DNA of 48,141 nucleotides, from positions 1-48,141 of the forward strand of contig JAKLKA010000042.1 in assembly GCA_023150915.1 (NCBI GenBank), given 5' to 3'. Position numbers and translations under genes: made by a program. Under the pieces are notes generated by a model. It did not search any database. It worked only from the letters and a program-made list of their open reading frames with translations, and was not told the origin of the DNA. This stretch comes from Polyangiaceae bacterium (GTDB lineage: Bacteria; Myxococcota_A; Polyangia; Polyangiales; Polyangiaceae). This document shows, in pieces, positions 33,453-45,310 of this stretch (positions are counted from its first letter, which is position 1; the number at the start of each line of letters is the position of its first letter).

Positions 33453-35276
33453 TCACTGGATCAGCCCGCTCACATCCACCCGCCCCGTTGCCTTCTTCTT
33501 CATCCGGGCCTCGAGCTCGGTGGCGAAGGCGTGATCGGGATCGATGGCGCGCAGATCGGCCACCAGCTCGCCCACGCTGTCGCGGTCGCCCAGGGCGGCC
33601 AGGGCAATGGCCTGCTCTTGCGTGCGCACGCTGAGCATGGTGATGGTGGCCTGATCCTTGTGCTCGGCCGTCTGCGCTGCGTCGAGCACGCGCTTGAAGG
33701 GGCGGCGGCCCTTCTCCAGGGCCAGGGTGCGATCGGACCGGCCATAGGCGTGGGGCGCGAAGTGCAGCCAGAAGGGCTTGGGGATCAGGTGATCGACCAG
33801 GCGCTTGTCCCAGCTCGGATCGAGCTCGACATACAGCGGGCGCGCGTCGGCCAGGCTCGAGAGCGCGCTCTCGCTGGGCTGGCCGCTGACCGCCATGTCG
33901 CGGATCAAGGGGGCCAGGGCCGGCTCGACCGCGAGCAACTTGGTCGCGACCGAGCCCTTGCCGATCAGCGGCAGCGGGACCACCACCACGTCGGGGCGCT
34001 CGCCGCGAGCGACGCGCGCCGCCCACAGGCGCCAGGCCACGGTCTCGGAGCGAACCAGGAGCAAGCTGCGGGGGGGCAGGCCACCCAGCGCCTCGTCGGT
34101 CCAGACCTCGGCCGCGTTCTGGCTGGTGCGGTCGGCGGGGAAGCCCGAGTCCTCGCCGGTGACCAGCACCAGCGTGAAGTCGAAGGCCACGAGCAGCGCC
34201 GCGGCGGTGCGAGCGAAGGGCAGGTCGGAGCGCTGCAAGGCGACCGCCGCGGTGTGCACGCCGAGGGCGGCAGCGGCAGCCAAGGCCACCAGCGCGAGCA
34301 AGCGGACGGGGGCCAGGGCGTCCGCCGAGAGCAGGCCGCCACGCGTGGCCGGGAAGACCACGTCGGCCACCACCAGGATCGCCAGCGGAACGGCGACCCA
34401 GCGGGTTTTGCCGCGGATCAGGCCCCACCCCAGGCCGCCCAGCGCCAGCACGCAGGCGATGATGCCGACCTCGGCGAACCAGGTGGTCAAGATGCCCGAG
34501 CGCGCCGCGGCGACGTCGGCGCCCGCCACGCTGGCCGACGAGAGGGTGATTCCCAGGTGCACCCACGCGCGGGCGGCCAGCGGCCGAACGGCGATGGGAA
34601 TGGCGCAGAGCAGACCTGTCACCAGCGCTCCGCTGGCGGCAAGAGCGAGGCCGCGCTTCGGAGGGATCTCGCCGATGGCGAAGACCTGCGCCGCGAGCGC
34701 CACCAGCAGCGCAGCACCGGCCGCGTGGCTCTCCATGCTGGTCAGACCCACGAACGCGCCGAACGCGAGCCACACCCGCGCGTCCCGGGCGCTGGCGCTG
34801 GGTCGCAGCAAGAGCCCGGCGAGCACCAGCGCCGCGGCCAGCGTGGCACCGCCGGCGATGGTGCCCTCGAGCTGCCAGGTGGGCGCGAGCGTTGCGGTCA
34901 GCGCAGCGGCCAGCGCCAGAAAGGGCGTGAGCCGCGGCGTGAACGCGTTCTGCTCGAGCAGGCGCGCGGTGAGGGAATATGCCAGGCGCGAAGCCAGCGC
35001 GAGGCAGAGGGCGCTGGGCAGGGCAGCGCGCAGCACGCGCCCACCGATGGGCAAGAGCGACGCGGCCTGGATCAGCACGCTCGAGAGCGTGCCCTCGCCG
35101 CCGATGGGGACGAGCCCCAGCGCGCGTACGATCGGCAAGTCGTCGCGCCACTGGGTGAAGGCGCTGGTGCGCAGCAAGGTGACGACCAGCGGCACGGCGA
35201 GGGCCAGCCACCCGCACAGCGGGTAGAGCCAGTGCCGCTCGGGGCGTAGCAGCGGGGGCGGGGGGCGGGCGCTCAC
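33453..35276 (-). CDS. Polytopic membrane protein, DUF2723/O-mannosyltransferase-like
   Basis: 607 residues with ~10-11 TM helices in the first ~410, beginning just after a Pro-rich cytoplasmic start. The stretch FTQWRDDLPIVRALG ... SLLPIGGRVLRAALPSAL resembles the first loop of DUF2723 proteins, relatives of protein O-mannosyltransferases and other lipid-sugar-dependent transferases. The ~190-residue C-terminal soluble part has PRSLLLVRSETVAWRLWAARV. GTG 35276 is preferred; a longer reading would overlap the aspS start and adds Pro/Arg-rich noise. Donor and target are unknown. It converges on the glycosidase-like gene. Confidence 0.65.
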   Translation of the reverse strand: MSARPPPPLLRPERHWLYPLCGWLALAVPLVVTLLRTSAFTQWRDDLPIVRALGLVPIGGEGTLSSVLIQAASLLPIGGRVLRAALPSALCLALASRLAYSLTARLLEQNAFTPRLTPFLALAAALTATLAPTWQLEGTIAGGATLAAALVLAGLLLRPSASARDARVWLAFGAFVGLTSMESHAAGAALLVALAAQVFAIGEIPPKRGLALAASGALVTGLLCAIPIAVRPLAARAWVHLGITLSSASVAGADVAAARSGILTTWFAEVGIIACVLALGGLGWGLIRGKTRWVAVPLAILVVADVVFPATRGGLLSADALAPVRLLALVALAAAAALGVHTAAVALQRSDLPFARTAAALLVAFDFTLVLVTGEDSGFPADRTSQNAAEVWTDEALGGLPPRSLLLVRSETVAWRLWAARVARGERPDVVVVPLPLIGKGSVATKLLAVEPALAPLIRDMAVSGQPSESALSSLADARPLYVELDPSWDKRLVDHLIPKPFWLHFAPHAYGRSDRTLALEKGRRPFKRVLDAAQTAEHKDQATITMLSVRTQEQAIALAALGDRDSVGELVADLRAIDPDHAFATELEARMKKKATGRVDVSGLIQ

Positions 35277-35380
35277 CCCCGAGAGCGTTACGATCTGCTG
35301 GGAATTCGGCCCAGTTTCCGGGAGACGCCGGCCCGGGGTTTGGGCCTTGGGCCGCGGGCGCGCTAAAAGCGGTGCCCCCC

Positions 35381-35387
35381 GAAAGGA
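35381..35387 (+). promoter_or_regulatory. Ribosome-binding site GAAAGGA that decides the TTG start of aspS
   Basis: Seven bases separate it from TTG 35395; no ATG in frame lies nearby. Confidence 0.6.
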
Positions 35388-35394
35388 CACCCCC

Positions 35395-37287
35395 TTGGCC
35401 CGGTTCATCGACGAGCTCAAGCGCACTCACGACAACGGCGCCCTGCGCGCCTCGAACCTCGACGAAGAGGTGGTCCTCTTCGGCTGGGTCGACAGCCGCC
35501 GCGACCATGGCTCGCTGATCTTCATCGATCTGCGGGATCGAGAGGGTCTGACCCAGGTGGTGTTCGACCCCGACGCCTCGCAAGAGGCCCACGACCTGGC
35601 CGAGCAGGTGCGCGGCGAATGGGTGATCGGCATCCGGGGCCGCGTGCGCTCCCGGGGCGAGCAGTTCAGTAAGAAGGAGAACAAGATGGTCTCCGCCGCC
35701 AACCCGAATCTGGCCACCGGCGAGATCGAGGTGGTGGTGACCGAGGCGACCATCTTCAACAAGGCCGAGACGCCGCCCTTCGAGATCACCGACCAGATCG
35801 ACACCCGCGAAGAGGTGCGGCTCCAGTACCGCTACCTGGACCTCCGGCGGCGGCCGCTTCAGCGCGCGCTGCGCATGCGCCACACCATCAACCAGGCCAC
35901 CCGCAACTACCTGGCTGGCCAGGGCTGCTTGGAGATCGAGACCCCGTTCCTGGTGAAGTACACCCCGGGCGGCGCGCGCAACTTCCTGGTGCCGGCGCGG
36001 CTGCACGCCGGGAAGTTCTATGCCCTGGCCGAGAGCCCGCAGATCTTCAAGCAGCTGTTCATGGTGGCGGGGTACGAGCGCTACTTCCAGATCGTGCGCT
36101 GCTTCCGCGACGAAGATCTGCGCCTGGACCGCCAGCCCGAGTTCACCCAGATCGACATCGAGATGAGCTTCGTCAACCAGGACGACATCTTCTCGCTGGT
36201 CGAGGGCCTGGTCTTCACCATCTGGAAAGAGGGCCTGGGCATCGATCTGAAGAAGCTCTACCCCGACGGTCATTTCCCGCGCATGAAGTTCGACGACTCG
36301 ATGCGCGACTACGGCAACGACAAGCCGGATCTGCGCTTCGGCATGAAGCACGTGGACCTGACCGATCTGGTGGTCGAGCATGGCGGCGGCGGCGTGCCCT
36401 TCTGGCAGCCGATCGCCGACAAGTTCCGCTCGGGCGTGCACCGTCGCGATCTGCCCGCCGAGATCGTCAAGTGCATGGTGGTGCCCGGCGACGCCGGCCT
36501 GTCACGCTCCGACACCGACAAGCTCGAGCAGCTGGCCAAGAGCATGGGCGCCGCAGGCCTGGCCCGCGCCAAGGTGGGGGCCGACGGCAGCTGGACGCAG
36601 TCGCCCTTCGCCAAGACCATTGACGCCAACCTGCGCGACGCCATCAACGCCCACTGCCGCGCCAAAGAGAACGACCTTCTGCTCTTCCAGTTCGGCAAGG
36701 CCAGCATGGTGCACACCGTGCTCGCCAACCTGCGGGTGCACGTGGCCAAGAAGCTGGGCCTCATTCCCGAGGTGGGTCACGGCGACCACTGGAACTTCTT
36801 GTGGGTGGTCGACCCGCCGCTGTTCGAGTGGGACGACGAACAGAAGCGCTGGGCCGCGGCGCACCACGCCTTCACCCGGCCGCACGACGACAGCGTGCCC
36901 TTGCTGGAGAAGGATCCGGGCAAGGTGCTGTGCCACCGCTACGACCTGGTGCTGAACGGCTTCGAGATCGCGGGCGGCAGCATTCGGCTCCACGACCCCG
37001 AGGTGCAGCAGCGGGTGTTCTCGGCGCTGGGCATCGCCGACCAGGACGCCCAGGAGAAGTTCGGGTTCTTGCTCAGCGCCCTGCGCTATGGCGCGCCGCC
37101 CCACGGCGGCATCGCCCTGGGCATGGACCGGCTGGCCATGCTGGCCGCCGGCAGCGACAGCATCCGGGACGTGATCGCCTTCCCCAAGACCCAAAAGGGC
37201 ACCGATGTGATGAGCGACGCCCCGAACCCGGTCAGCCCGCAGCAGCTCGCCGACCTGCACATCCGGACGGCTACCGAAGGCAGCTGA
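35395..37287 (+). CDS. aspS: Aspartyl-tRNA synthetase (bacterial type, TTG start)
   Basis: 630 residues, bacterial length with the GAD insertion. The N-terminal anticodon-binding OB fold (~20-110; VVLFGWVDSRRDHGSLIFIDLRD) is followed by class II motif 1, GGARNFLVPARLHAGKFYALAESPQ, motif 2 RCFRDEDLRLDRQPEFTQIDIE, and motif 3 GGIALGMDRLAML. All intact. No ATG or GTG is suitably placed; TTG 35395 has GAAAGGA 7 bases upstream and gives LARFIDELKRTH, the family-like start. Whether it also charges tRNA-Asn cannot be judged here because gatCAB and asnS are outside the window. Confidence 0.95.
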   Translation: MARFIDELKRTHDNGALRASNLDEEVVLFGWVDSRRDHGSLIFIDLRDREGLTQVVFDPDASQEAHDLAEQVRGEWVIGIRGRVRSRGEQFSKKENKMVSAANPNLATGEIEVVVTEATIFNKAETPPFEITDQIDTREEVRLQYRYLDLRRRPLQRALRMRHTINQATRNYLAGQGCLEIETPFLVKYTPGGARNFLVPARLHAGKFYALAESPQIFKQLFMVAGYERYFQIVRCFRDEDLRLDRQPEFTQIDIEMSFVNQDDIFSLVEGLVFTIWKEGLGIDLKKLYPDGHFPRMKFDDSMRDYGNDKPDLRFGMKHVDLTDLVVEHGGGGVPFWQPIADKFRSGVHRRDLPAEIVKCMVVPGDAGLSRSDTDKLEQLAKSMGAAGLARAKVGADGSWTQSPFAKTIDANLRDAINAHCRAKENDLLLFQFGKASMVHTVLANLRVHVAKKLGLIPEVGHGDHWNFLWVVDPPLFEWDDEQKRWAAAHHAFTRPHDDSVPLLEKDPGKVLCHRYDLVLNGFEIAGGSIRLHDPEVQQRVFSALGIADQDAQEKFGFLLSALRYGAPPHGGIALGMDRLAMLAAGSDSIRDVIAFPKTQKGTDVMSDAPNPVSPQQLADLHIRTATEGS

Positions 37288-37332: not shown

Positions 37333-37338
37333 TACAAT
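37333..37338 (+). promoter_or_regulatory. -10 box TACAAT of the chemosensory operon, 10 nt before the start
   Basis: TACAAT matches the sigma-70 consensus at 5 of 6 positions. Its last two bases overlap the ATG at 37337, so only ATG 37349 can be the translation start of a transcript made from it. Confidence 0.5.
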
Positions 37339-37348
37339 GGCGCCCCCA

Positions 37349-38746
37349 ATGGGCGCCCGAATCCTCGTGGTCGACGACAGCCCCACGATCCGCAAGGTCG
37401 TGGCGTCGATCTTGGCGTCGCAAGACTACGACCCGGTCACGGCCGAAGACGGGCAAGACGCCCTGCTGAAGATCAAGAGCGGCATCGAGATCGACTTGGT
37501 GCTGCTCGACTTCGTGATGCCGCGCATGAACGGCTATCAGTTCTGTCGCGAGCTGAGGGCCAACCCCGACCGGGCGAACACGCCGGTGGTGCTGATGAGC
37601 GCCAAGGGCGACAAGATCCGCGGCCAGTTCGTCCAGCAGACCGGCGCCATCGACGCCATCACCAAGCCCTTCGACGCGCGCGGCCTGATCGCGGTGGTCG
37701 AGGGCGCGCTGAAGAAGCACCAAGAGGGGCGTGGTCCGGCGGTGCCCGAGCCGAACACCATGCCCGACGAGTCGACCATCGCCGAGCCGGTGAGCGCCAG
37801 TCAGGTGGCGGCCAGCGACGACCCGGCGCTGCGTCGCGTGCAGACCGCGGTGGTGTTCGCGGCGAACCTGGTCAAGCTGGTGACGCCCGAGCTGGCGTCC
37901 ACCTCGGGGGTCTCGCCCGACATGGTGGCCAAGCTGAACGACGCGGTGAAGCGCGCCATCACGCCCGAGAACATGGGCTCGCTGACCAGCCTGCTGCGCA
38001 CCCTGGATTTCGGCGAGAACACCCAAGAAGTGCTGGCCGGCGACGTGTCGGTCATCTCCATTGCCGAGATTTTGCAGCTCTTGCACCTGCAGCACCAGAC
38101 CGGGGGCCTGGTGATCTCGAACGCCAAGAGCGAGATCACGCTGTTCGTGCGCGAGGGCAACATCGACTTCGCCCGCTCGCGGGGGGTGCGCGACGAGTTC
38201 TTGCTCGGTCGCTACCTGGTCGAGTCGGGCGCCATCAGCCGCGAAGATCTGGACACCGTGCTCGGCCAACGCTCGGGCTCGCGCCGGCTGCTCGGCGACG
38301 TGCTCAAAGAGCTGGGGCTGGTCGAGCCCGAAGCCATCACCCACGCCATCACCCGCCAGGCGTCCGAGCTGGTGTACGAGGTGGTGCGGTGGAAGACGGG
38401 TCGCTTCACCTTCACGGTCGGCATCCCGCCCGAGGTGTCCACCGTTCGCCTGGGGCTGTCGACCAGCGCGCTGGTGATGGAGGGGTTCCGACGGGTGGAC
38501 GAGTGGCGGCTGATCGAGGGCACCTTCGACTTCGAAGAGGTGATCGCCCAGGACGAGGGCGCCATCGAGCGTCACGGCGACGAGTCGAAGCTCACCAAGC
38601 GCGAGCTGGCGGTGCTCGAGGCCATCGACGGCCAGCGCACGGTGCGCGAGGTGGTCGACTTCATGGAAGGCAGCTCGTTCGAGGTGTGCAAGATCATCTA
38701 CCAGTTCTTGAACTCGCGGCTGGTGCGGCGGCGGAGCGCGAACTGA
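37349..38746 (+). CDS. Response regulator with N-terminal REC and C-terminal PATAN (DUF4388) domain
   Basis: 465 residues. REC domain 1-120: DD acidic pocket (9-10), phosphoacceptor Asp54 in VLLDFVMPRMNG, Ser/Thr in VLMSAKG, and Lys in ITKPFD. After a linker with a helix (~155-225), a PATAN/DUF4388 domain (~230-460) has ISIAEILQLLHLQHQTGGLVI and LFVREGNIDFARSRG. PATAN regulators in cyanobacteria (PixG/PixE, PatA) act with CheA-type kinases to control pili. The stop overlaps the next ATG (TGATG). It is the probable output of the operon; no DNA-binding domain is present. Confidence 0.88.
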   Translation: MGARILVVDDSPTIRKVVASILASQDYDPVTAEDGQDALLKIKSGIEIDLVLLDFVMPRMNGYQFCRELRANPDRANTPVVLMSAKGDKIRGQFVQQTGAIDAITKPFDARGLIAVVEGALKKHQEGRGPAVPEPNTMPDESTIAEPVSASQVAASDDPALRRVQTAVVFAANLVKLVTPELASTSGVSPDMVAKLNDAVKRAITPENMGSLTSLLRTLDFGENTQEVLAGDVSVISIAEILQLLHLQHQTGGLVISNAKSEITLFVREGNIDFARSRGVRDEFLLGRYLVESGAISREDLDTVLGQRSGSRRLLGDVLKELGLVEPEAITHAITRQASELVYEVVRWKTGRFTFTVGIPPEVSTVRLGLSTSALVMEGFRRVDEWRLIEGTFDFEEVIAQDEGAIERHGDESKLTKRELAVLEAIDGQRTVREVVDFMEGSSFEVCKIIYQFLNSRLVRRRSAN

Positions 38747-39096
38747 TGGGCAGCGGCGCCGGCATGATCGTGTCGGTGCGGGGCGAACCGCGGTTCCTTC
38801 CCGCGCTGGTGGTGCACAGCGTGCACGCCCGCCCGCGCTTGTCGGCCGTGCCGGGCAGCCCCCTGGCCCTGGCCTGGGTCGCGGGCAAGGTGGTGCCGGT
38901 GGCGCGCCTGGGCGAGGCGGGCCCGCACCTGGTGGTGTGCCTGAGCGGGGGCGAGGTGGTGGGCCTGTGGGGGGTCGAGGTGCTCGACACCGGCTTCTTC
39001 CAGAAGAGCGAGCACGGCGTCGAGCACGCGGGCCAGCCGGTGGCACCGCTGGACGTGGCGCTGGAAATCGAGAAAGCACTGGAGGCCAGCGCATGA
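38746..39096 (+). CDS. Short CheW-like adaptor
   Basis: 116 residues, smaller than typical CheW (~150). The profile LPALVVHSVHARPRLSAVPG, LAWVAGKVVPVARLGE and VVCLSGGEVVGLWGVEVLDTG follows the CheW/SH3-like strand pattern (promotes a PLP/ALP-like turn, lrGxvvPvvdL, and GlxVdxV). It should bridge the receptor-like protein and CheA. Starts inside the previous stop (TGATG), and its own stop overlaps the next start (ATGA). Identity is moderate because of the short length and weak similarity. Confidence 0.65.
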   Translation: MGSGAGMIVSVRGEPRFLPALVVHSVHARPRLSAVPGSPLALAWVAGKVVPVARLGEAGPHLVVCLSGGEVVGLWGVEVLDTGFFQKSEHGVEHAGQPVAPLDVALEIEKALEASA

Positions 39097-39866
39097 AGCT
39101 CGGACGCTTGATCGGCGGTCTGCGCGAAACATTCAGCGGCGAGCGGGCCGCCGAGCAGAGTCGCGGAGTCGACGACGCGCTCTTGTTCCGCGCGGCCGAG
39201 AACGCCGAGCACGCCGCCGAAACCGCGCTCTCGGCCAGTCAGGCCGCCGGCGCCAGCGCCGCACAGCAACGCACGCTGCTCGACGCCGCGGTCGACGCGG
39301 TGAAGCTGCTGTTTTCGCGCGCGCGCGAGGCACGCACCAGCCTGGCGGCGGCGCGAGAGTCGCTGGAGCAGATCCGGCTCACGGCGCTCAACGCCGGGCT
39401 GGAAGGCGCGCGGCTGGGCGACCCGGCCGGCAAGCCGCTGGTGCTGGTCGCCGAAGACGTGCGCAGCCACGCGGGCCGTGCCCTGGGCGCCCTCGAGCGG
39501 CACGGCGCGCTGTTCGATCAGATGGACAAGGACCGCGACAAGCTGCGAGAGCAGGTCGAGAGCGCCCAGGCGCGCACCGCCGACGTGGCCCGCGACATCT
39601 TGCAGCTGCAGGCGGTGCAGCGCGACGTCTCGACCGCGCTCTCCGACGTGTCGGCGCGGGTCAAGCACATCACGCGCACCGACCCCGAGAGCGCGCGCAT
39701 CGTGGCGGAAGCCGCCGACCACGCCCGCGCGTTGCTCGACGCGCTGACCGCGCTGTCGGCGCGACCCCAGAACAAGTCGCTGCTTGGCTCCCTCGGGCCC
39801 ACGCTGGGGCCCCTGATCGAGCTGATACGCGATCAGTACCGCGACGAGTCGGACGAAAGCCCGTGA
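39093..39866 (+). CDS. Soluble MCP-like signalling protein
   Basis: 257 residues, almost entirely alpha-helical and coiled-coil. The core LTALNAGLEGARLGDPAGKPLVLVAEDVR (97-125) is written here only by its key residues: the LNA-x3-GARLG turn and the VAEDVR that correspond to the receptor hairpin tip. There is no TM helix, HAMP, sensor domain or C-terminal CheR tether, so it is a minimal cytoplasmic receptor. It should form a trimer-of-dimers-like bundle and control CheA through the CheW-like partner. Coupled by ATGA on the left and GTGA on the right. Confidence 0.78.
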   Translation: MKLGRLIGGLRETFSGERAAEQSRGVDDALLFRAAENAEHAAETALSASQAAGASAAQQRTLLDAAVDAVKLLFSRAREARTSLAAARESLEQIRLTALNAGLEGARLGDPAGKPLVLVAEDVRSHAGRALGALERHGALFDQMDKDRDKLREQVESAQARTADVARDILQLQAVQRDVSTALSDVSARVKHITRTDPESARIVAEAADHARALLDALTALSARPQNKSLLGSLGPTLGPLIELIRDQYRDESDESP

Positions 39867-41818
39867 GCCAGGCCGAGCTCGACGCCCTCTTGGCCGACGA
39901 GATCGAGAAGCGCTCGGCGGTGTTCGACGACCCAACGGCCGACCCGCGCGAAGTGCGCGCCGCGCTGCACACCTTCCGCGGCTCGGCGGCCATGGCCGGC
40001 CACACCGATCTCTCGCTGGTGATCGCCCAGCTTTCGGCGCGCCTGCGCCGGGGTGAGACCGGCGCGCGCCACGACGCTGCACGACTCTTGCGCGCAGCAA
40101 TGGGCCGCCTGCGCGGGGGCCGCCCGGTGTTCGACACCGAGTGGCCCGAGCCGCCCCCGGGCCTCGGGCCGTCGAGCGTCGATCCGGCCTACCGCGCCGA
40201 GTACCAGGCCACGGTGCGCGAGCGCGTGGCCGAGCTCGAGGCCCTGCTCGAGCGCCCCGAGGACCCGAGCGCGCTCACCGACGCCATCCGCGCCGTGCAC
40301 TCGGTGAAGGGCGCCGCTGCGGCCATCGGCGACGACCTGACCACGTGGTACTGCCATGGCCTCGAAGCCGCGCTCAAGCAGCCCGGCTTCGATCGGCGCC
40401 GGCTTTCGGCGGATCTGCCGCGGCACATCAGCGTGCTGATCACCTTGGTCGACGACCCAACCAGCGCGCTCGACACGCTGCGCCCCCGCGAACGGCGCAC
40501 CTCGGCCGCACCCAGCCGCCGCGCCTCGGTACCGCCGGAAGAAGACACCGGCGAGCAGATGGTACGCGTGCACGGGGTGTCGCTCGAACGCGTGCTCGAG
40601 CGGGTCGAGCTGATCCGTTTGGCGCAAGACGAGGTCTCGGGCGCGGCGGCCGTGGCCGAGCACGAGGTTTCGCGGCTGCGCGACCAGCAAGCGGCACTGG
40701 CCGAGGCGCTGCGCCTCTTGGGGCCACCACGACCCTGGGGCCCCCCGGCCAAGGCGCTGGCCACGCTGGACGCCGTGGGAAGGTCCTTGGCGGCCGCAGC
40801 GGACGACCTGGAGTACGGCAGCGCACTGGGGCGAAAGGGGGCAGACCGTCTCAAGGGCGCCGCCCACGACGTGCGCCGCGAGATCGCGCTGGTCCGCCGC
40901 ACCTCGCTCTCTTCCATGTTGAACAAGATCGGCGCGGCGGTGGAGCGCCTGGCAGCCCGGGAAGATCGCCCGGTGCGCGTGCTGATCCGCGCCGGCGACG
41001 CGCCCCTGGACCGCGAGATCGCCGAGCGCCTGGTCGACCCACTGATGCAGCTGGCACGCAACGCCCTGGCTCACGGGTTCGAGGCCGCCGACGAGCGCGT
41101 GGCGCTGGGAAAAGACCCCGTGGGCACGCTCGCGCTCTCGGCCGAACGCATCGGAGACTCGCTCTCGATCGTGTGTGAAGACGACGGCCGCGGCGTCGAC
41201 ATCGAGTCCGTGCGCCGCTCGGCGGTCCTGCGCGGCTCGATCAGCGCCGAAGCGGCCCGCGCCGCGGGCGACGACGACTTGCTCTCGCTGTTGTTCGTGC
41301 CGGGGCTGACCACCAAGCGCGAGGCCGATCTCTTGGCCGGTCGCGGCGTGGGCCTCGATCTCGCCCTGAACACCGTGCGGCGCCTGGGCGGAACCATTCG
41401 CCTCGAACGGCGGCCCGGCAGCGGCCTTCGTGCCACGCTCGAAGTGCCCAGCGAGCGCTTCACCACCGACGTGATCTGGCTCGAGGCCGGCGCTTTTCGG
41501 CTGGCGCTGCCGGTGAGCTTCGCCGGGAAGGTCGAGCTGACGGCGCCGGAAGAGCCGGTGGTGCCGCTGCTGCGCTGCCTGGGCGAGCCGTCCGAAGCCG
41601 CCTGCGCTCTTTCCATCGAGCTCGCGCTCCGCGGCATCCCCGCCGTCCGCGTGGGGGTCGACGCCGTGGGCGAGGTAGAAGAGTGCAACCTGCGACCGTT
41701 GCCGACCTTGCTGGCAGAGAGCGGCCCCTACAGCGGCGCCATCTTGCGCGGCGACGGCTCGCTCTTGCTCTCGCTCGACGCCGCGCTGCTCGCCGTGCGC
41801 GCCTGGGCCCTGTCATGA
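39863..41818 (+). CDS. CheA-type histidine kinase with two HPt domains
   Basis: 651 residues. Two HPt domains: His36 in LHTFRGSA (Lys of the HxxKG motif replaced by Arg) and His146 in VHSVKGAA. No P2 domain is visible. Dimerisation helices (~235-345) precede the ATPase domain: N box LARNALAHG (Asn400), G1 DGRG (441-444), GLTTKREADLLAGRGVGLDL (481-500). A CheW-like domain ends the protein (~520-651). Start GTG 39863 overlaps the preceding stop. No CheR, CheB or stand-alone CheY is present in the window. Confidence 0.92.
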   Translation: MSQAELDALLADEIEKRSAVFDDPTADPREVRAALHTFRGSAAMAGHTDLSLVIAQLSARLRRGETGARHDAARLLRAAMGRLRGGRPVFDTEWPEPPPGLGPSSVDPAYRAEYQATVRERVAELEALLERPEDPSALTDAIRAVHSVKGAAAAIGDDLTTWYCHGLEAALKQPGFDRRRLSADLPRHISVLITLVDDPTSALDTLRPRERRTSAAPSRRASVPPEEDTGEQMVRVHGVSLERVLERVELIRLAQDEVSGAAAVAEHEVSRLRDQQAALAEALRLLGPPRPWGPPAKALATLDAVGRSLAAAADDLEYGSALGRKGADRLKGAAHDVRREIALVRRTSLSSMLNKIGAAVERLAAREDRPVRVLIRAGDAPLDREIAERLVDPLMQLARNALAHGFEAADERVALGKDPVGTLALSAERIGDSLSIVCEDDGRGVDIESVRRSAVLRGSISAEAARAAGDDDLLSLLFVPGLTTKREADLLAGRGVGLDLALNTVRRLGGTIRLERRPGSGLRATLEVPSERFTTDVIWLEAGAFRLALPVSFAGKVELTAPEEPVVPLLRCLGEPSEAACALSIELALRGIPAVRVGVDAVGEVEECNLRPLPTLLAESGPYSGAILRGDGSLLLSLDAALLAVRAWALS

Positions 41819-42294
41819 GGGTGGAAGCAATGACCCCGGCCGATCGCTCGCGAGTGGTCGAGATCGCCGCGCTCACCCAGCAGACCATCGACCTCGAGGC
41901 AGAGCTGGCCAAGACCTGGGCGAGCCTGACCGTCGCGCGCGAGACGCCGGCTGCGCCCGCGTGGGCGGTTCTCTTGACCTGGTCGGTGGCCGACGAGCTG
42001 CACGTGATCAACGTGGCGACCCACCCCGATTTCCGCCGCCGCGGCGCGGCCCGGGCGCTGCTTTCCGAGGCCCTGGCGCGAGCCATACGCGACCGGAAGC
42101 GTCTCGTGCTACTGGAGGTGCGCCGCTCGAATCTGGCGGCGATCAGCCTGTACCGATCGCTGGGTTTCACCACCCACCTGGTCCGTCGCGGCTACTACGC
42201 GGACAACTCCGAGGACGCCATCGAGATGAAGCTGTGCATCGACCCGGGCACCGGGCAGATCCTCGCGGGCAGCGACGAAGCGGAGGTCGACTGA
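41815..42294 (+). CDS. rimI: GNAT acetyltransferase, RimI-like
   Basis: 159 residues. Acetyl-CoA-binding loop HPDFRRRGAARALL (~73-86) and the C-terminal RRSNLAAISLYRSLGF are the classical GNAT/RimI pattern; RimI acetylates the N-terminus of ribosomal protein S18. The last ~20 residues (SEDAIEMKL...) are typical of RimI. ATG 41815 overlaps the CheA stop. The gene may be transcribed from the chemosensory operon promoter. A broader GNAT function is possible, so the symbol is tentative. Confidence 0.75.
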   Translation: MRVEAMTPADRSRVVEIAALTQQTIDLEAELAKTWASLTVARETPAAPAWAVLLTWSVADELHVINVATHPDFRRRGAARALLSEALARAIRDRKRLVLLEVRRSNLAAISLYRSLGFTTHLVRRGYYADNSEDAIEMKLCIDPGTGQILAGSDEAEVD

Positions 42295-42295
42295 G

Positions 42296-43105
42296 ATGGC
42301 GCCCCATCGCGCTCAGGTCGTCGCGCCGCTGCTCAGACGCGAGAGCATGGGCAACGCCTACCAGGTGCTCACCTTCGACGTGGGTCGCGACCTGGGCGCG
42401 CTGCCCGGTCAGTTCCTGATGGTGCGCGGCGCCGAGTGGGGCGACGCCCCGCTCTTGCCGCGCCCGATGAGCTACCTGAGCGGCGGCGCCACGCCCACCA
42501 TCTTGGTGAAGGTGGTGGGTGAGGGCACCACGCGCATGGCGCGCGCCGAGCCGGGCGAGCCGTTCTCGCTGATCGGCCCGCTGGGGGTTCCGTGGCGCGC
42601 CCCCACGCCAGGTCGGCGTGCCGTGCTGGTGGCGGGTGGGGTCGGCGTGGCACCGCTGTTGTTCCTGGCCCGCACGCTCTCGGCCACGGGCCAGCGCCCC
42701 ATCGCCTTGTATGGCGGGCGTACCAAGAAAGACCTTCCGCTGGACGACGACCTGGCGCTGATCACCGACCTTCACCTCACCACCGAAGACGGCTCGCGCG
42801 GGCAGAAGGGCCGCGTCACCGACGCGCTCGGCGCACTCTTGGCCGAAGACGTCGAGGTCTTCACCTGCGGGCCCGATCGGATGATGGCCGCGGTGGCCGA
42901 GATGTGCGCGCGGCGCGACGTGCCGTGCGAGGTGTCGGTCGAGACGCCCATGGCCTGCGGTTATGGCGTGTGCCTGGGCTGCCCTCTGCCAGCCGCCGGG
43001 GGCGGCTACATCTATGCCTGCACCGAAGGCCCGTGCATCGACGCGCGGCGCATCGACTGGAGCCGCGCCGAGCGCGCGCCAAGCGCCGGAGGGGCGGCGT
43101 CGTGA
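42296..43105 (+). CDS. pyrK: Dihydroorotate dehydrogenase electron transfer subunit (PyrK)
   Basis: 269 residues, family length. FAD-binding RPMSYLS (~56-62), NAD-binding GGVGVAPLLFL (~114-124) and CGPDRMM, then a C-terminal [2Fe-2S] site with Cys221, Cys226, Cys229 and Cys242 (CGYGVCLGC...YACTEGP). PyrK passes electrons from PyrD to NAD+ in class 1B enzymes of pyrimidine synthesis. One base separates it from rimI (TGAGATG), and its stop overlaps the pyrD start. Confidence 0.93.
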   Translation: MAPHRAQVVAPLLRRESMGNAYQVLTFDVGRDLGALPGQFLMVRGAEWGDAPLLPRPMSYLSGGATPTILVKVVGEGTTRMARAEPGEPFSLIGPLGVPWRAPTPGRRAVLVAGGVGVAPLLFLARTLSATGQRPIALYGGRTKKDLPLDDDLALITDLHLTTEDGSRGQKGRVTDALGALLAEDVEVFTCGPDRMMAAVAEMCARRDVPCEVSVETPMACGYGVCLGCPLPAAGGGYIYACTEGPCIDARRIDWSRAERAPSAGGAAS

Positions 43106-44010
43106 ACCGGCTCGCGGTCCAGATCGGCTCGCTCGAGCTCGAGAACCCGGTGCTCACCGCGTCGGGCACGTTCGGCTACGGGCTCGAGTACGACGACTTC
43201 TTCGACGTGGCCACGCTGGGCGGCATCTGCACCAAAGGCCTGAGCCGCGAGCCACGGGCCGGCAACCCGCCCGAGCGCATCTGCGAGACCCCGGCCAGCA
43301 TGCTCAACGCCATTGGCCTGGCCAACGTCGGCGTCGAGGCGTTCTGCCGGGACAAGCTGCCGATCTTGCGAGAGCGCGGGGTGACGGTGATCGCCAACAT
43401 CTTCGCCAGCAGCACCGACGACTTCGTGGCCATCGCCGAGCGCCTGGGTGGCGAGCCAGGCGTCCACGCGCTCGAGCTCAACGTCTCGTGCCCGAACGTG
43501 TCCCACGGCGGCATCGAGTTCGGCAAAGACCCCACCCTGGCGGCCCAGGTCACCGGTGCGGTGCGCCGGGCGGTGAAGCTGCCGCTCTGGGTGAAGATGA
43601 GCCCCGAGGCCGGAGACATCGTCGCGGTGGCCAAGGCCTGTGAAGACGCCGGCGCCGACGCCCTGACCGCGATCAACACCATTCGCGGCATGACCATCGA
43701 CGTGGACGCCGAACGCCAGCGCCTGGCCAATCGCACCGGCGGGTTCAGCGGGCCGGCGCTTCGGCCCATCGCGCTGCGCATCGTCTGGGATCTGGTGGGC
43801 GCGGTGAAGATCCCGGTGATCGGCATCGGCGGCATCTCGACCTGGCGCGACGCGCTCGAGTTCTTGCTGGCAGGCGCCCGCGCCATTCAGGTGGGCACGG
43901 CCAGCTTCGCCGACCCGTGCGCCGCCCAGAAGGTGCTGGCAGGCATCGCCGCGCACTGCGAGCGGCACGGCACGACCGTGACCGAGCTGATCGGTCGGGC
44001 GCGACGGTGA
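43102..44010 (+). CDS. pyrD: Dihydroorotate dehydrogenase class 1B catalytic subunit
   Basis: 302 residues. FMN barrel with NPVLTASGTFGYG (~15-27), the catalytic Cys130 in NVSCPN (Ser would indicate class 2), KMSPEAGDIVAVAKACEDAGADALTAINT in the phosphate/FMN region and IGIGGISTW. Cys and the adjacent PyrK identify class 1B, which uses NAD+. GTG 43102 overlaps the pyrK stop (GTGA), with GGAGGGG about 8 bases upstream. It ends the seven-gene run that began with the chemosensory genes. Confidence 0.95.
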   Translation: MNRLAVQIGSLELENPVLTASGTFGYGLEYDDFFDVATLGGICTKGLSREPRAGNPPERICETPASMLNAIGLANVGVEAFCRDKLPILRERGVTVIANIFASSTDDFVAIAERLGGEPGVHALELNVSCPNVSHGGIEFGKDPTLAAQVTGAVRRAVKLPLWVKMSPEAGDIVAVAKACEDAGADALTAINTIRGMTIDVDAERQRLANRTGGFSGPALRPIALRIVWDLVGAVKIPVIGIGGISTWRDALEFLLAGARAIQVGTASFADPCAAQKVLAGIAAHCERHGTTVTELIGRARR

Positions 44011-44014
44011 GGCC

Positions 44015-45310
44015 ATGATCACGAGAGCCGCCTTCGTCTCCGCGTGCCTGCTGGTCTCGGGTTGCCCCTCGCAGGGTGCCAGCGGCAGCCAAGAAAACCA
44101 GAATCAACCCAGCCCCAACGCCAGCATCCTGCCCGCACCGCTGCTCTCGGCCGATCCCGCGCCGGCGGTCAAGGCCGACGCCGGGCGCGGCGGCATCCCG
44201 GCGGACTCGGCCGGGCGGCTGATCGTCCCCGAGGCCGGGCCTCCCGAGCCCACGGCGTTCCGTGACGACGCAGCCCTGCCGCGCGACACGCTGACCATCA
44301 AAGACGGCACCGGCGTCACGCTCGAGGCCGCGTTCAAGTGGCTCGACGTGCCCGGACCGAACGCCACGCCCGAGCTGTCGAACGACGCGCTGAAGAAGGC
44401 GCGCGAGAAGACCGCGCTGCGGGTCAGCGTCGACCTGGCTCCGATCGGGCGCATGCGCTTCGCCTTCGCCTCGCCCAGCTTTCCGGTGCCTCAGAACGCC
44501 GAGCTGCGGGCGCAGTCCGAGCACCACGGCCACGTCTTGGTCTGGCCCGACGGAAACGCCTACCGCGTGCTGCGCGCCGGCACGCTGCGCGCCCTCTTGT
44601 CCGAGGGGCGCGCCGACGCGCTGCCGCTCACTCAGGTCAAGGCCGAGCGCCGGGGCAAGGGTCAGCTGCTCGGCCTCGAGACCAGCAAGCTCGAGATCGC
44701 CGCGCCCATGGGAGACGTGTCGCTCGAGAGCGGCAACGTGCCCAATCTGGGGCGCGCCGGCGATCTCTTGTGTCGCCTGATCCTGGATCTGGTGGCGGTG
44801 GACCCGGCCAGCAAGATCTGCGACGACGGGCTGACCCCGCTCAAGGCGGAGCTGCGCTGGCCCAAGGGCGGCAAGCTGGCCTTCGAGGTCTCGGCGATCG
44901 CCCGCAAGGCCGAGCTGCCATTCGGGCAGCTCTTCATTCCGCCTGCAGGCGCCACGTTCCGCTCGGGCGAGCTGCCCCCCCAAGCTGCCGGCGTGCTGCT
45001 CACGCGCGACGACCTCGGCGCCTTCCACACCAAGGCAGTGACCACCGAGCCGGCGGACAAGGCCGCGCCCGGCGAGGGCCTCTTGGCGGTGAACAAGAGT
45101 GACTCGATCCGATACGTGCTGATCGACGGCGTGGCGGTGGCGTGGATCCGGCCGCAGTCCGAGCAGCTCTTGATTGGCCCGCTGCCGGGCCGCTACTCGG
45201 TGTCCTTTCGTGACTTTCTGGGCAGCACCATCGAGCCCCCGCAGGTGGTGGCCTTGCCCGCCCGCGTGACCGTCGGCGGGCCCCCCGACGCCGGCGCACC
45301 ACCGAAGTAG
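44015..45310 (+). CDS. Putative lipoprotein, 431 residues
   Basis: MITRAAFVSACLLVSGC is a signal peptide with lipobox VSGC. A disordered Pro/Ala/Asn linker (~20-80) leads to ~340 residues of mixed beta-rich sequence with a pair of Cys (LLC...KICDDG). No family recognised. It begins 4 bases after pyrD, with GGTGAGG overlapping the stop as a possible Shine-Dalgarno, so may be part of the same transcript. An envelope location is inferred; function unknown. Confidence 0.75.
   Translation: MITRAAFVSACLLVSGCPSQGASGSQENQNQPSPNASILPAPLLSADPAPAVKADAGRGGIPADSAGRLIVPEAGPPEPTAFRDDAALPRDTLTIKDGTGVTLEAAFKWLDVPGPNATPELSNDALKKAREKTALRVSVDLAPIGRMRFAFASPSFPVPQNAELRAQSEHHGHVLVWPDGNAYRVLRAGTLRALLSEGRADALPLTQVKAERRGKGQLLGLETSKLEIAAPMGDVSLESGNVPNLGRAGDLLCRLILDLVAVDPASKICDDGLTPLKAELRWPKGGKLAFEVSAIARKAELPFGQLFIPPAGATFRSGELPPQAAGVLLTRDDLGAFHTKAVTTEPADKAAPGEGLLAVNKSDSIRYVLIDGVAVAWIRPQSEQLLIGPLPGRYSVSFRDFLGSTIEPPQVVALPARVTVGGPPDAGAPPK

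Follow-up and report, generated by a model that had tools for sequence, protein, structure and literature searches.

How a chemosensory array becomes attached to, or detached from, its response regulator, what stimulates a receptor that has no sensor, no membrane anchor and no adaptation enzymes encoded beside it, and whether pili are a target of PATAN regulators in bacteria other than cyanobacteria are questions that meet in one operon of a Polyangiaceae bacterium (contig JAKLKA010000042.1, 48,141 nucleotides, this whole stretch being referred to as the window). For the first of them the locus and its relatives amount to a natural experiment, and the other two are posed by it in a minimal form. 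Open reading frames, Pfam domains and family profiles agree with an earlier note on this DNA in that a chain of overlapping genes at 37349-41818 encodes, in this order, a response regulator with a receiver (REC) and a PATAN domain, a short CheW-like protein, a soluble protein resembling methyl-accepting chemotaxis proteins (MCPs) and a CheA kinase, the junctions being TGATG before the CheW-like gene, ATGA before the MCP-like gene and GTGA before the CheA gene. However, the note had ended the operon too early, as a fifth gene, coding for a rimI-like protein, overlaps the CheA gene by a further ATGA:

37349..38746, + strand: REC-PATAN response regulator, 465 residues (Pfam Response_reg, DUF4388)
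38746..39096, + strand: short divergent CheW, 116 residues (family alignment, profile matches)
39093..39866, + strand: soluble MCP-like receptor, 257 residues (Pfam MCPsignal)
39863..41818, + strand: CheA, 651 residues (Pfam Hpt twice, HATPase_c)
41815..42294, + strand: rimI-like GNAT N-acetyltransferase (NCBIfam rimI 81.8 bits, just below the cut-off of 86.4)

While the anatomy of the operon is real and conserved, what is unexpected and new is that array and regulator can be separated and that the regulator persists alone. The explanation to which we give an about even chance is a compact chemosensory phosphorelay in which the PATAN domain acts on surface motility or polarity and the array serves as an optional input and not as the core, because several relatives keep the regulator without it.

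A response regulator with and without its array

The CheA protein was searched in 59 genomes, 37 of them from the same family (with the window genome) and 22 from other families of the order. A full-length relative, defined by a best piece of at least 212 bits (two pieces being combined in G003, G005, G029 and G030), is encoded in 22 of the 37 family genomes, the window genome included, and among the matches listed in none of the 22 genomes from other families; the remaining matches listed do not exceed 149 bits and cover mainly the kinase and P5 parts. In a sample of the class, for which 144 genomes were searched with the single CheA protein and 8 candidates were scored per genome, nine genomes matched at 1e-40, six of them from the same family. 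Here another family contributed a full-length relative (G183, 33%), and the matches of G041 and G143 are without the histidine phosphotransfer (HPt) part.

All four genes are present in 17 of the 22 CheA-bearing genomes, the CheW-like gene of G029 being assigned by its place and by alignment. They form a single run in 14 genomes; 3.8 kb lie between REC-PATAN and CheW in G012, and the set is split across contigs in G005 and G030. The four-base overlap between the MCP-like and CheA genes could be called in 15 of 20 loci, the choice of starts having favoured sites near the preceding stop, and 18 of 22 loci, that of the window included, have a rimI-like gene after CheA. In G183, REC-PATAN, the MCP-like protein and CheA are accompanied by an intervening reading frame that is CheW-like by eye, with a profile match short of 1e-3. 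The order on which the earlier note had staked its proposal therefore recurs in 17 genomes, and its two short proteins do match CheW and MCP profiles, as detailed below.

The regulator is nevertheless the wider-spread part of the system. At 1e-50 REC-PATAN is found in 39 of the 59 genomes, with a single match in each. The CheW-like, MCP-like and CheA genes (hereafter the trio) accompany it in 17 of these and a decayed trio in one (G004), while 17 genomes with examined neighbourhood have REC-PATAN but no trio, G019, G041, G044 and G054 standing outside this examination. It is these 17 orphan loci, nine from the same family and eight from other families of the order, that reveal the separability of trio and regulator, which the earlier note had missed. 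In three of them (G025, G042, G058) the contig ends soon after REC-PATAN, and the absence of the array is taken from the whole-genome search for CheA.

Several orphans show what amounts to an empty site. The rimI-like gene is the next gene after REC-PATAN in five of them, at a distance of 12 to 52 bases in G023, G034, G009 and G011; the rimI-like frame of G006 is open from 9 bases past REC-PATAN, no start having been called for it. On the other side, eight of the loci that lack an intact trio have aspS upstream of REC-PATAN at a distance of at most about 1.3 kb, as in the window. In G004, REC-PATAN is followed by the CheW-like and MCP-like genes, a CheA remnant and rimI. Of the CheA profile, the remnant matches P5 with 60 bits and the dimerisation part weakly, the HPt and kinase parts being unmatched, and in the tip of the MCP-like protein LS replaces LN. 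Within the one family the array is present in 20 genera, and 10 genera have the regulator in the absence of an intact array, often at the same site; in one of these 10 a decayed CheA is left.

In G038 and G058 (loci L092 and L093), both from another family, REC-PATAN comes directly after a very large protein, which in L092 comprises 1587 residues with many tetratricopeptide repeats and is a possible partner.

The REC residues that make up the phospho-site in the window protein (D9, D10, D54, S84 and K106) are kept in 17 of 17 orphans. Moreover, the mean pairwise identity of REC is 64% in the nine same-family orphans versus 66% in the 17 sequences with trio, of which one (L044) has lost its start at a contig edge; the values for PATAN, 45% and 49%, respectively, lie below those for REC. 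Because the orphans keep the phospho-site residues and REC is about equally conserved in both groups, the regulator seems, judging from these sequences, to be phosphorylated also without a CheA of its own.

In a tree of 36 REC-PATAN proteins, which does not tell gains from losses, the label 'trio' needs eight changes, and the starred branches force at least six. This tree and a quick CheA tree contain the same main groups, those common to both being {G000, G001, G002, G008, G022, G029}, {G031, G005, G015} and {G024, G017}. Given the shared site and the agreement of the trees, the simplest reading is that a trio-bearing ancestor was followed by repeated losses, although the trio might formally also have been transferred to this site several times.

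The proteins of the operon

REC-PATAN matches Response_reg at 6e-25 and DUF4388, which we take to be the PATAN domain, at 3.4e-29. REC spans residues 5-117 and PATAN residues 230-387, and a conserved C-terminal part (388-465) has no Pfam match; translation might alternatively start at an in-frame ATG at 37337. As no second receiver was found in the operon with Pfam, REC-PATAN is the sole response regulator there.

The 116-residue window protein alone has a sub-threshold match to Pfam CheW (E 0.031, 14.4 bits versus a cut-off of 23.5). In an alignment of 16 family members, the window protein among them, Pfam CheW is matched by 12 when E values up to 1 are allowed, a lenient limit (best value 2.7e-8), and G76, G83 and F85 are invariant in all 16. 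It is through the family that the coupling protein expected of a Che system is recognised here, as the family profile also hits four solved CheW-type sequences with E values between 9.9e-5 and 0.0038, in addition to one chance match at 0.84.

The MCP-like protein matches MCPsignal at 4.8e-10 (40.0 bits versus a cut-off of 34.6), and its family profile matches solved MCPs at 3e-14, so that the MCP signalling domain is present. It consists of a short N-terminal helix, an antiparallel hairpin with its tip at about 99-113 and a conserved C-terminal part. A low-confidence model places helices at 24-51, 56-108, 114-193, 198-222 and 229-250 and is read for its helix pattern only, the models of the CheW-like and MCP-like proteins having been built from two-sequence alignments with mean pLDDT values of 48.7 and 55.5, respectively. 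In line with the earlier description of a bare coiled-coil hairpin, neither a HAMP nor a known sensor domain was found in it, nor any transmembrane-like stretch in the 19 proteins of this kind that were scanned (maximum Kyte-Doolittle mean over 19 residues 1.50). Weak NCBIfam matches to unrelated families (E 0.02-0.8) were dismissed as chance matches of the coiled coil.

The tip motif LNxxLx[G/A]xR is common to 20 same-family MCP-like proteins. Their turn reads E/D-x-x-G and is thus one residue longer than in the canonical MCPs compared, namely that of Thermotoga maritima and an ordinary MCP of G041, which have E-x-G; the G183 receptor, from outside the family, deviates at the turn. The methylation consensus has five hits in 19 of the proteins, scattered and none of them conserved. 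The short N-terminal segment is, in part of the family, basic and strongly amphipathic, the hydrophobic moment being at least 0.9 in 8 of 20 proteins and 0.56 in the window protein, and in the C-terminal part D197 and P236 are invariant and H210 is nearly invariant in 19 proteins. Both parts are candidates for the sites of signal input.

CheA comprises HPt1 (H36), HPt2 (H146, K149), a dimerisation-like region, HATPase_c and a C-terminal CheW-like part (P5). Pfam finds Hpt at 3.8e-12 in two stretches and HATPase_c at 5.9e-10 but no REC domain, and the family profile matches P4-P5 of the T. maritima CheA at 3.6e-67, so that HPt, ATPase and P5 are all represented. In a relative of the same genus CheA is 86% identical to that of the window. 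H146 and K149 of HPt2 are conserved in 21 of 21 CheA proteins and H36 of HPt1 in 20 of 21. The arginine that the earlier note had pointed out at the motif lysine of HPt1 (position 39) is real in the window protein but variable in the family (Lys in 14 and Arg in 7 of 21); the third genome of the window's own genus already has Lys. As the two residues alternate even within this genus, the suggestion that Arg marks a different role of the first HPt is abandoned; both HPt domains look usable from their sequences, which leaves little weight to this substitution.

The N-box reads QLARNALAHG in place of the HLLRNAIDHG of T. maritima, with Gln for His in 19 and Ala for Asp in 18 of the 21 proteins, whereas the two other CheAs of the window genome keep His and Asp. 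The N-box histidine matters for CheA activity. The motifs DDGxG and GRGxGL are kept in all 21, and no internal stop was found in any full-length CheA among the matches listed.

As the earlier note had stated, cheR and cheB were not found in the operon. The window genome (8.0 Mb in 295 contigs) nevertheless has two CheB matches and, in the loci scanned, at least two CheR genes, and adaptation in trans is therefore possible. It further contains 3 MCPsignal and 13 DUF4388 matches and two further CheA genes; the few MCPs fit the 2-5 per genome reported for Sorangiineae and Nannocystineae (PMC6194562).

For the fifth gene product, the rimI-like protein, both the regulator and ribosomal S18 are conceivable targets. 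The following neighbours are given for context and lie outside the system:

35401..37287, + strand: aspS, recurrent upstream neighbour
42296..44010, + strand: pyrK-like gene and pyrD, downstream housekeeping neighbours
33453-35426, - strand: 657-residue protein, no Pfam match
44015-45310, + strand: 431-residue protein, no Pfam match, lipoprotein-like beginning

The last two recur beside the locus in several relatives.

Output of the regulator and rival explanations

According to the preferred explanation, a compact phosphorelay with an optional array, the P5 part of CheA would assemble with the short CheW and the soluble receptor into an array, either cytoplasmic or peripherally bound, that responds to an intracellular stimulus. 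CheA would autophosphorylate through its HPt domains and pass the phosphate to REC of the co-encoded REC-PATAN, whose PATAN part would then target the machinery of surface motility or polarity, the likeliest target being the assembly ATPase of type IVa pili or its polar regulators. In array-less relatives REC-PATAN would presumably be phosphorylated by another kinase.

As to the output, PATAN regulators belong to all three tax operons of Synechocystis (PMC5812497), and the PATAN domains of PixG, PilG and TaxP2 are reported to mediate the interaction with PilB (PMC10519157). In a STRING search, two PATAN proteins of Myxococcus xanthus co-occur with the pilus regulator SgmX (PMC11580455). The window genome has type IVa pilus genes, and in five relatives (G006, G013, G026, G027, G030) an FrzS-like gene lies upstream of the locus, within about 2 kb:

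L046, 615-2867: FrzS-like protein
L053, 1091-3415: FrzS-like protein
L050, 9856-12000, - strand: FrzS-like protein
L088, 4825-7179, - strand: FrzS-like protein
L091, 2614-4677: FrzS-like protein

The distance to REC-PATAN is 91 bases in G006 and 1.3-1.6 kb in G027 and G030; in G013 and G026, where the distance is taken to CheW, it is 1.5-2.1 kb and spans one or two genes on the opposite strand. The proteins consist of a receiver, a long low-complexity and coiled-coil part and similar C-terminal ends, and the best solved relative of the two tested is the FrzS receiver (5e-21 and 9.6e-21). All five receivers have Ala or Ser at the position of the phosphorylatable Asp, which is replaced in the published FrzS receiver as well (PMC1974792). 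In M. xanthus, FrzS shifts between the poles in social, i.e., pilus-driven, motility (PMC1974792), so that this neighbour favours surface motility. No FrzS-like frame was found in the window by the same scan, the window genome elsewhere not having been searched for frzS.

Co-occurrence with type IVa pilus genes proved uninformative as a test of function. PilB, PilM and PilT exceed their cut-offs in 54, 55 and 57 of the 59 genomes, respectively, PilB whether or not the operon is present, and because they are nearly universal only the genomes without them speak. In G021 (locus L095) and G006 (L096) a cluster of the type II secretion system type coincides with an apparent loss of type IVa pili.

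These two genomes weigh against the reading preferred here. G021, a single contig of 12.24 Mb, keeps the full operon (L041) with PilB and PilM both below cut-off; its weaker PilB and PilM hits sit in the type II secretion cluster, where GspE (650.9 bits) and GspD (470.7 bits) both exceed their cut-offs, and its one PilT-family match (1.9e-101) is weaker than the best match of most genomes. G006, a draft of 110 contigs, keeps the FrzS-like gene and REC-PATAN, again with PilB and PilM below cut-off, and its GspE-like protein, called short, reaches 593 bits versus 630. To be counted on the same side, the five FrzS-like neighbours stem from one clade and represent one arrangement, not five, and the N-box differs from that of canonical CheA, so that kinase activity is not assured. 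In addition, REC-PATAN was not found at 1e-50 in five of the 22 array-bearing genomes, so that the partnership of array and regulator is not strict: G013, G016 and G026 have the CheW-like, MCP-like and CheA genes, G032 has the MCP-like and CheA genes with no CheW-like gene found, and the contig of G036 starts with the MCP-like gene.

Since G021 keeps the operon and G006 REC-PATAN without PilB or PilM over the cut-off, a strict dependence on type IVa pili is unlikely. Of the motility or pilus switch put forward in the earlier note, for which the report on PilB, the pilus genes of the host and the FrzS-like neighbour of one clade still speak, the strict pilus switch is therefore not supported, and a broader surface-motility or polarity output is the best guess. 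The same phosphorelay might, however, control a function unrelated to pili, such as secretion, exopolysaccharide, gene expression or development, with a PATAN partner other than PilB. This is a serious contender, though we lean towards doubting it: G021 and G006 would fit it, co-occurrence lends the pilus link no support, and FrzS of M. xanthus also acts on exopolysaccharide (PMC3158785), whereas the FrzS-like neighbour in the five genomes, the PATAN regulators of the Synechocystis tax operons with their reported PilB binding and the co-occurrence with SgmX point the other way.

It is improbable that the array is decaying or only marginally active, with the divergent CheW, the longer receptor tip and the altered N-box as signs of relaxed constraint and with REC-PATAN served by other kinases. 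The forced changes of array presence, the CheA remnant of G004 and the weak CheW match of the window protein would be in keeping with such a decay; however, the His and Lys of HPt2, the DDGxG and GRGxGL motifs and the invariant CheW residues are retained throughout, and the full-length CheA matches listed are free of internal stops. Less probable still is that CheA also serves other regulators, be it a stand-alone CheY or, by protein contact, the FrzS-like protein, REC-PATAN then being a neighbour and not the main target. The genomes G013, G016 and G026, which have arrays but gave no REC-PATAN hit and of which two (G013, G026) have an FrzS-like gene upstream, would suit this view, but REC-PATAN is adjacent in most genomes and follows the same tree, and the FrzS-like receivers have Ala or Ser where the phosphorylatable Asp would be.

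A more far-reaching proposal can be made, which is tentative and as a whole rather unlikely. The trio between REC-PATAN and rimI would be a detachable module, ancestral in the family and lost about six times (at least six changes of state), leaving behind a regulator that remains competent for phosphorylation and has come under another kinase, and the receptor, devoid of a ligand domain, would use its N-terminal helix and its conserved C-terminal part (D197, H210 and P236) to sense a condition inside the cell, for instance occupancy of the membrane or pole. As G021 keeps the operon on a single contig without PilB and PilM, the pilus question is directly testable there. A description of the operon was not found in the searched literature on myxobacterial chemosensory systems or DUF4388 response regulators, an earlier description being possible.

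Comparison with known chemosensory systems

The order of PATAN regulator, CheW, MCP and CheA is reportedly that of the Pix (Tax1) locus of Synechocystis as well, whose kinase PixL has a C-terminal REC that the CheA described here does not have. Pix (PixG, PixH, PixI, PixJ1 and PixL; components after PMC5812497) has in common with the present system that a PATAN regulator is encoded together with CheW, MCP and CheA, as found here in 17 genomes. In PixG, however, PATAN is N-terminal (PMC10519157), whereas here REC precedes PATAN; there is no second CheY, and the receptor is soluble and without photosensor. In its gene set and in these two departures, the REC before PATAN and the lack of an extra CheY, the earlier likening to Pix was borne out by Pfam, and the set is conserved in relatives.

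With the Frz system of M. xanthus (FrzCD, FrzA, FrzB, FrzE and FrzS) the operon shares a cytoplasmic receptor, a myxobacterial host and, in five relatives, a nearby FrzS-like gene. In contrast to Frz, it has neither CheR and CheB nor a CheA-CheY fusion, its output is a PATAN regulator and its receptor is shorter than FrzCD. For the shortened CheW, FrzB provides a precedent (PMC6952110).

More than one HPt in CheA, along with a conceivable pilus-type output, is a feature also of the Pil-Chp system of Pseudomonas (ChpA), from which the present system differs by having two HPt domains only, a CheA without REC, a soluble receptor and a PATAN regulator, PilG of P. aeruginosa being reported to be without PATAN (PMC10519157). 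At least two HPt domains are reported for 18% of CheAs, of which more than 90% have a C-terminal REC and about 93% belong to the type IV pilus (Tfp) or alternative cellular function (ACF) classes (PMC10542144); the window CheA has the multiple HPt domains found in these classes but not the C-terminal REC usual for multi-HPt CheAs. Overall, the system resembles Pix- and Frz-like systems and corresponds to the definition of Pix only in part.

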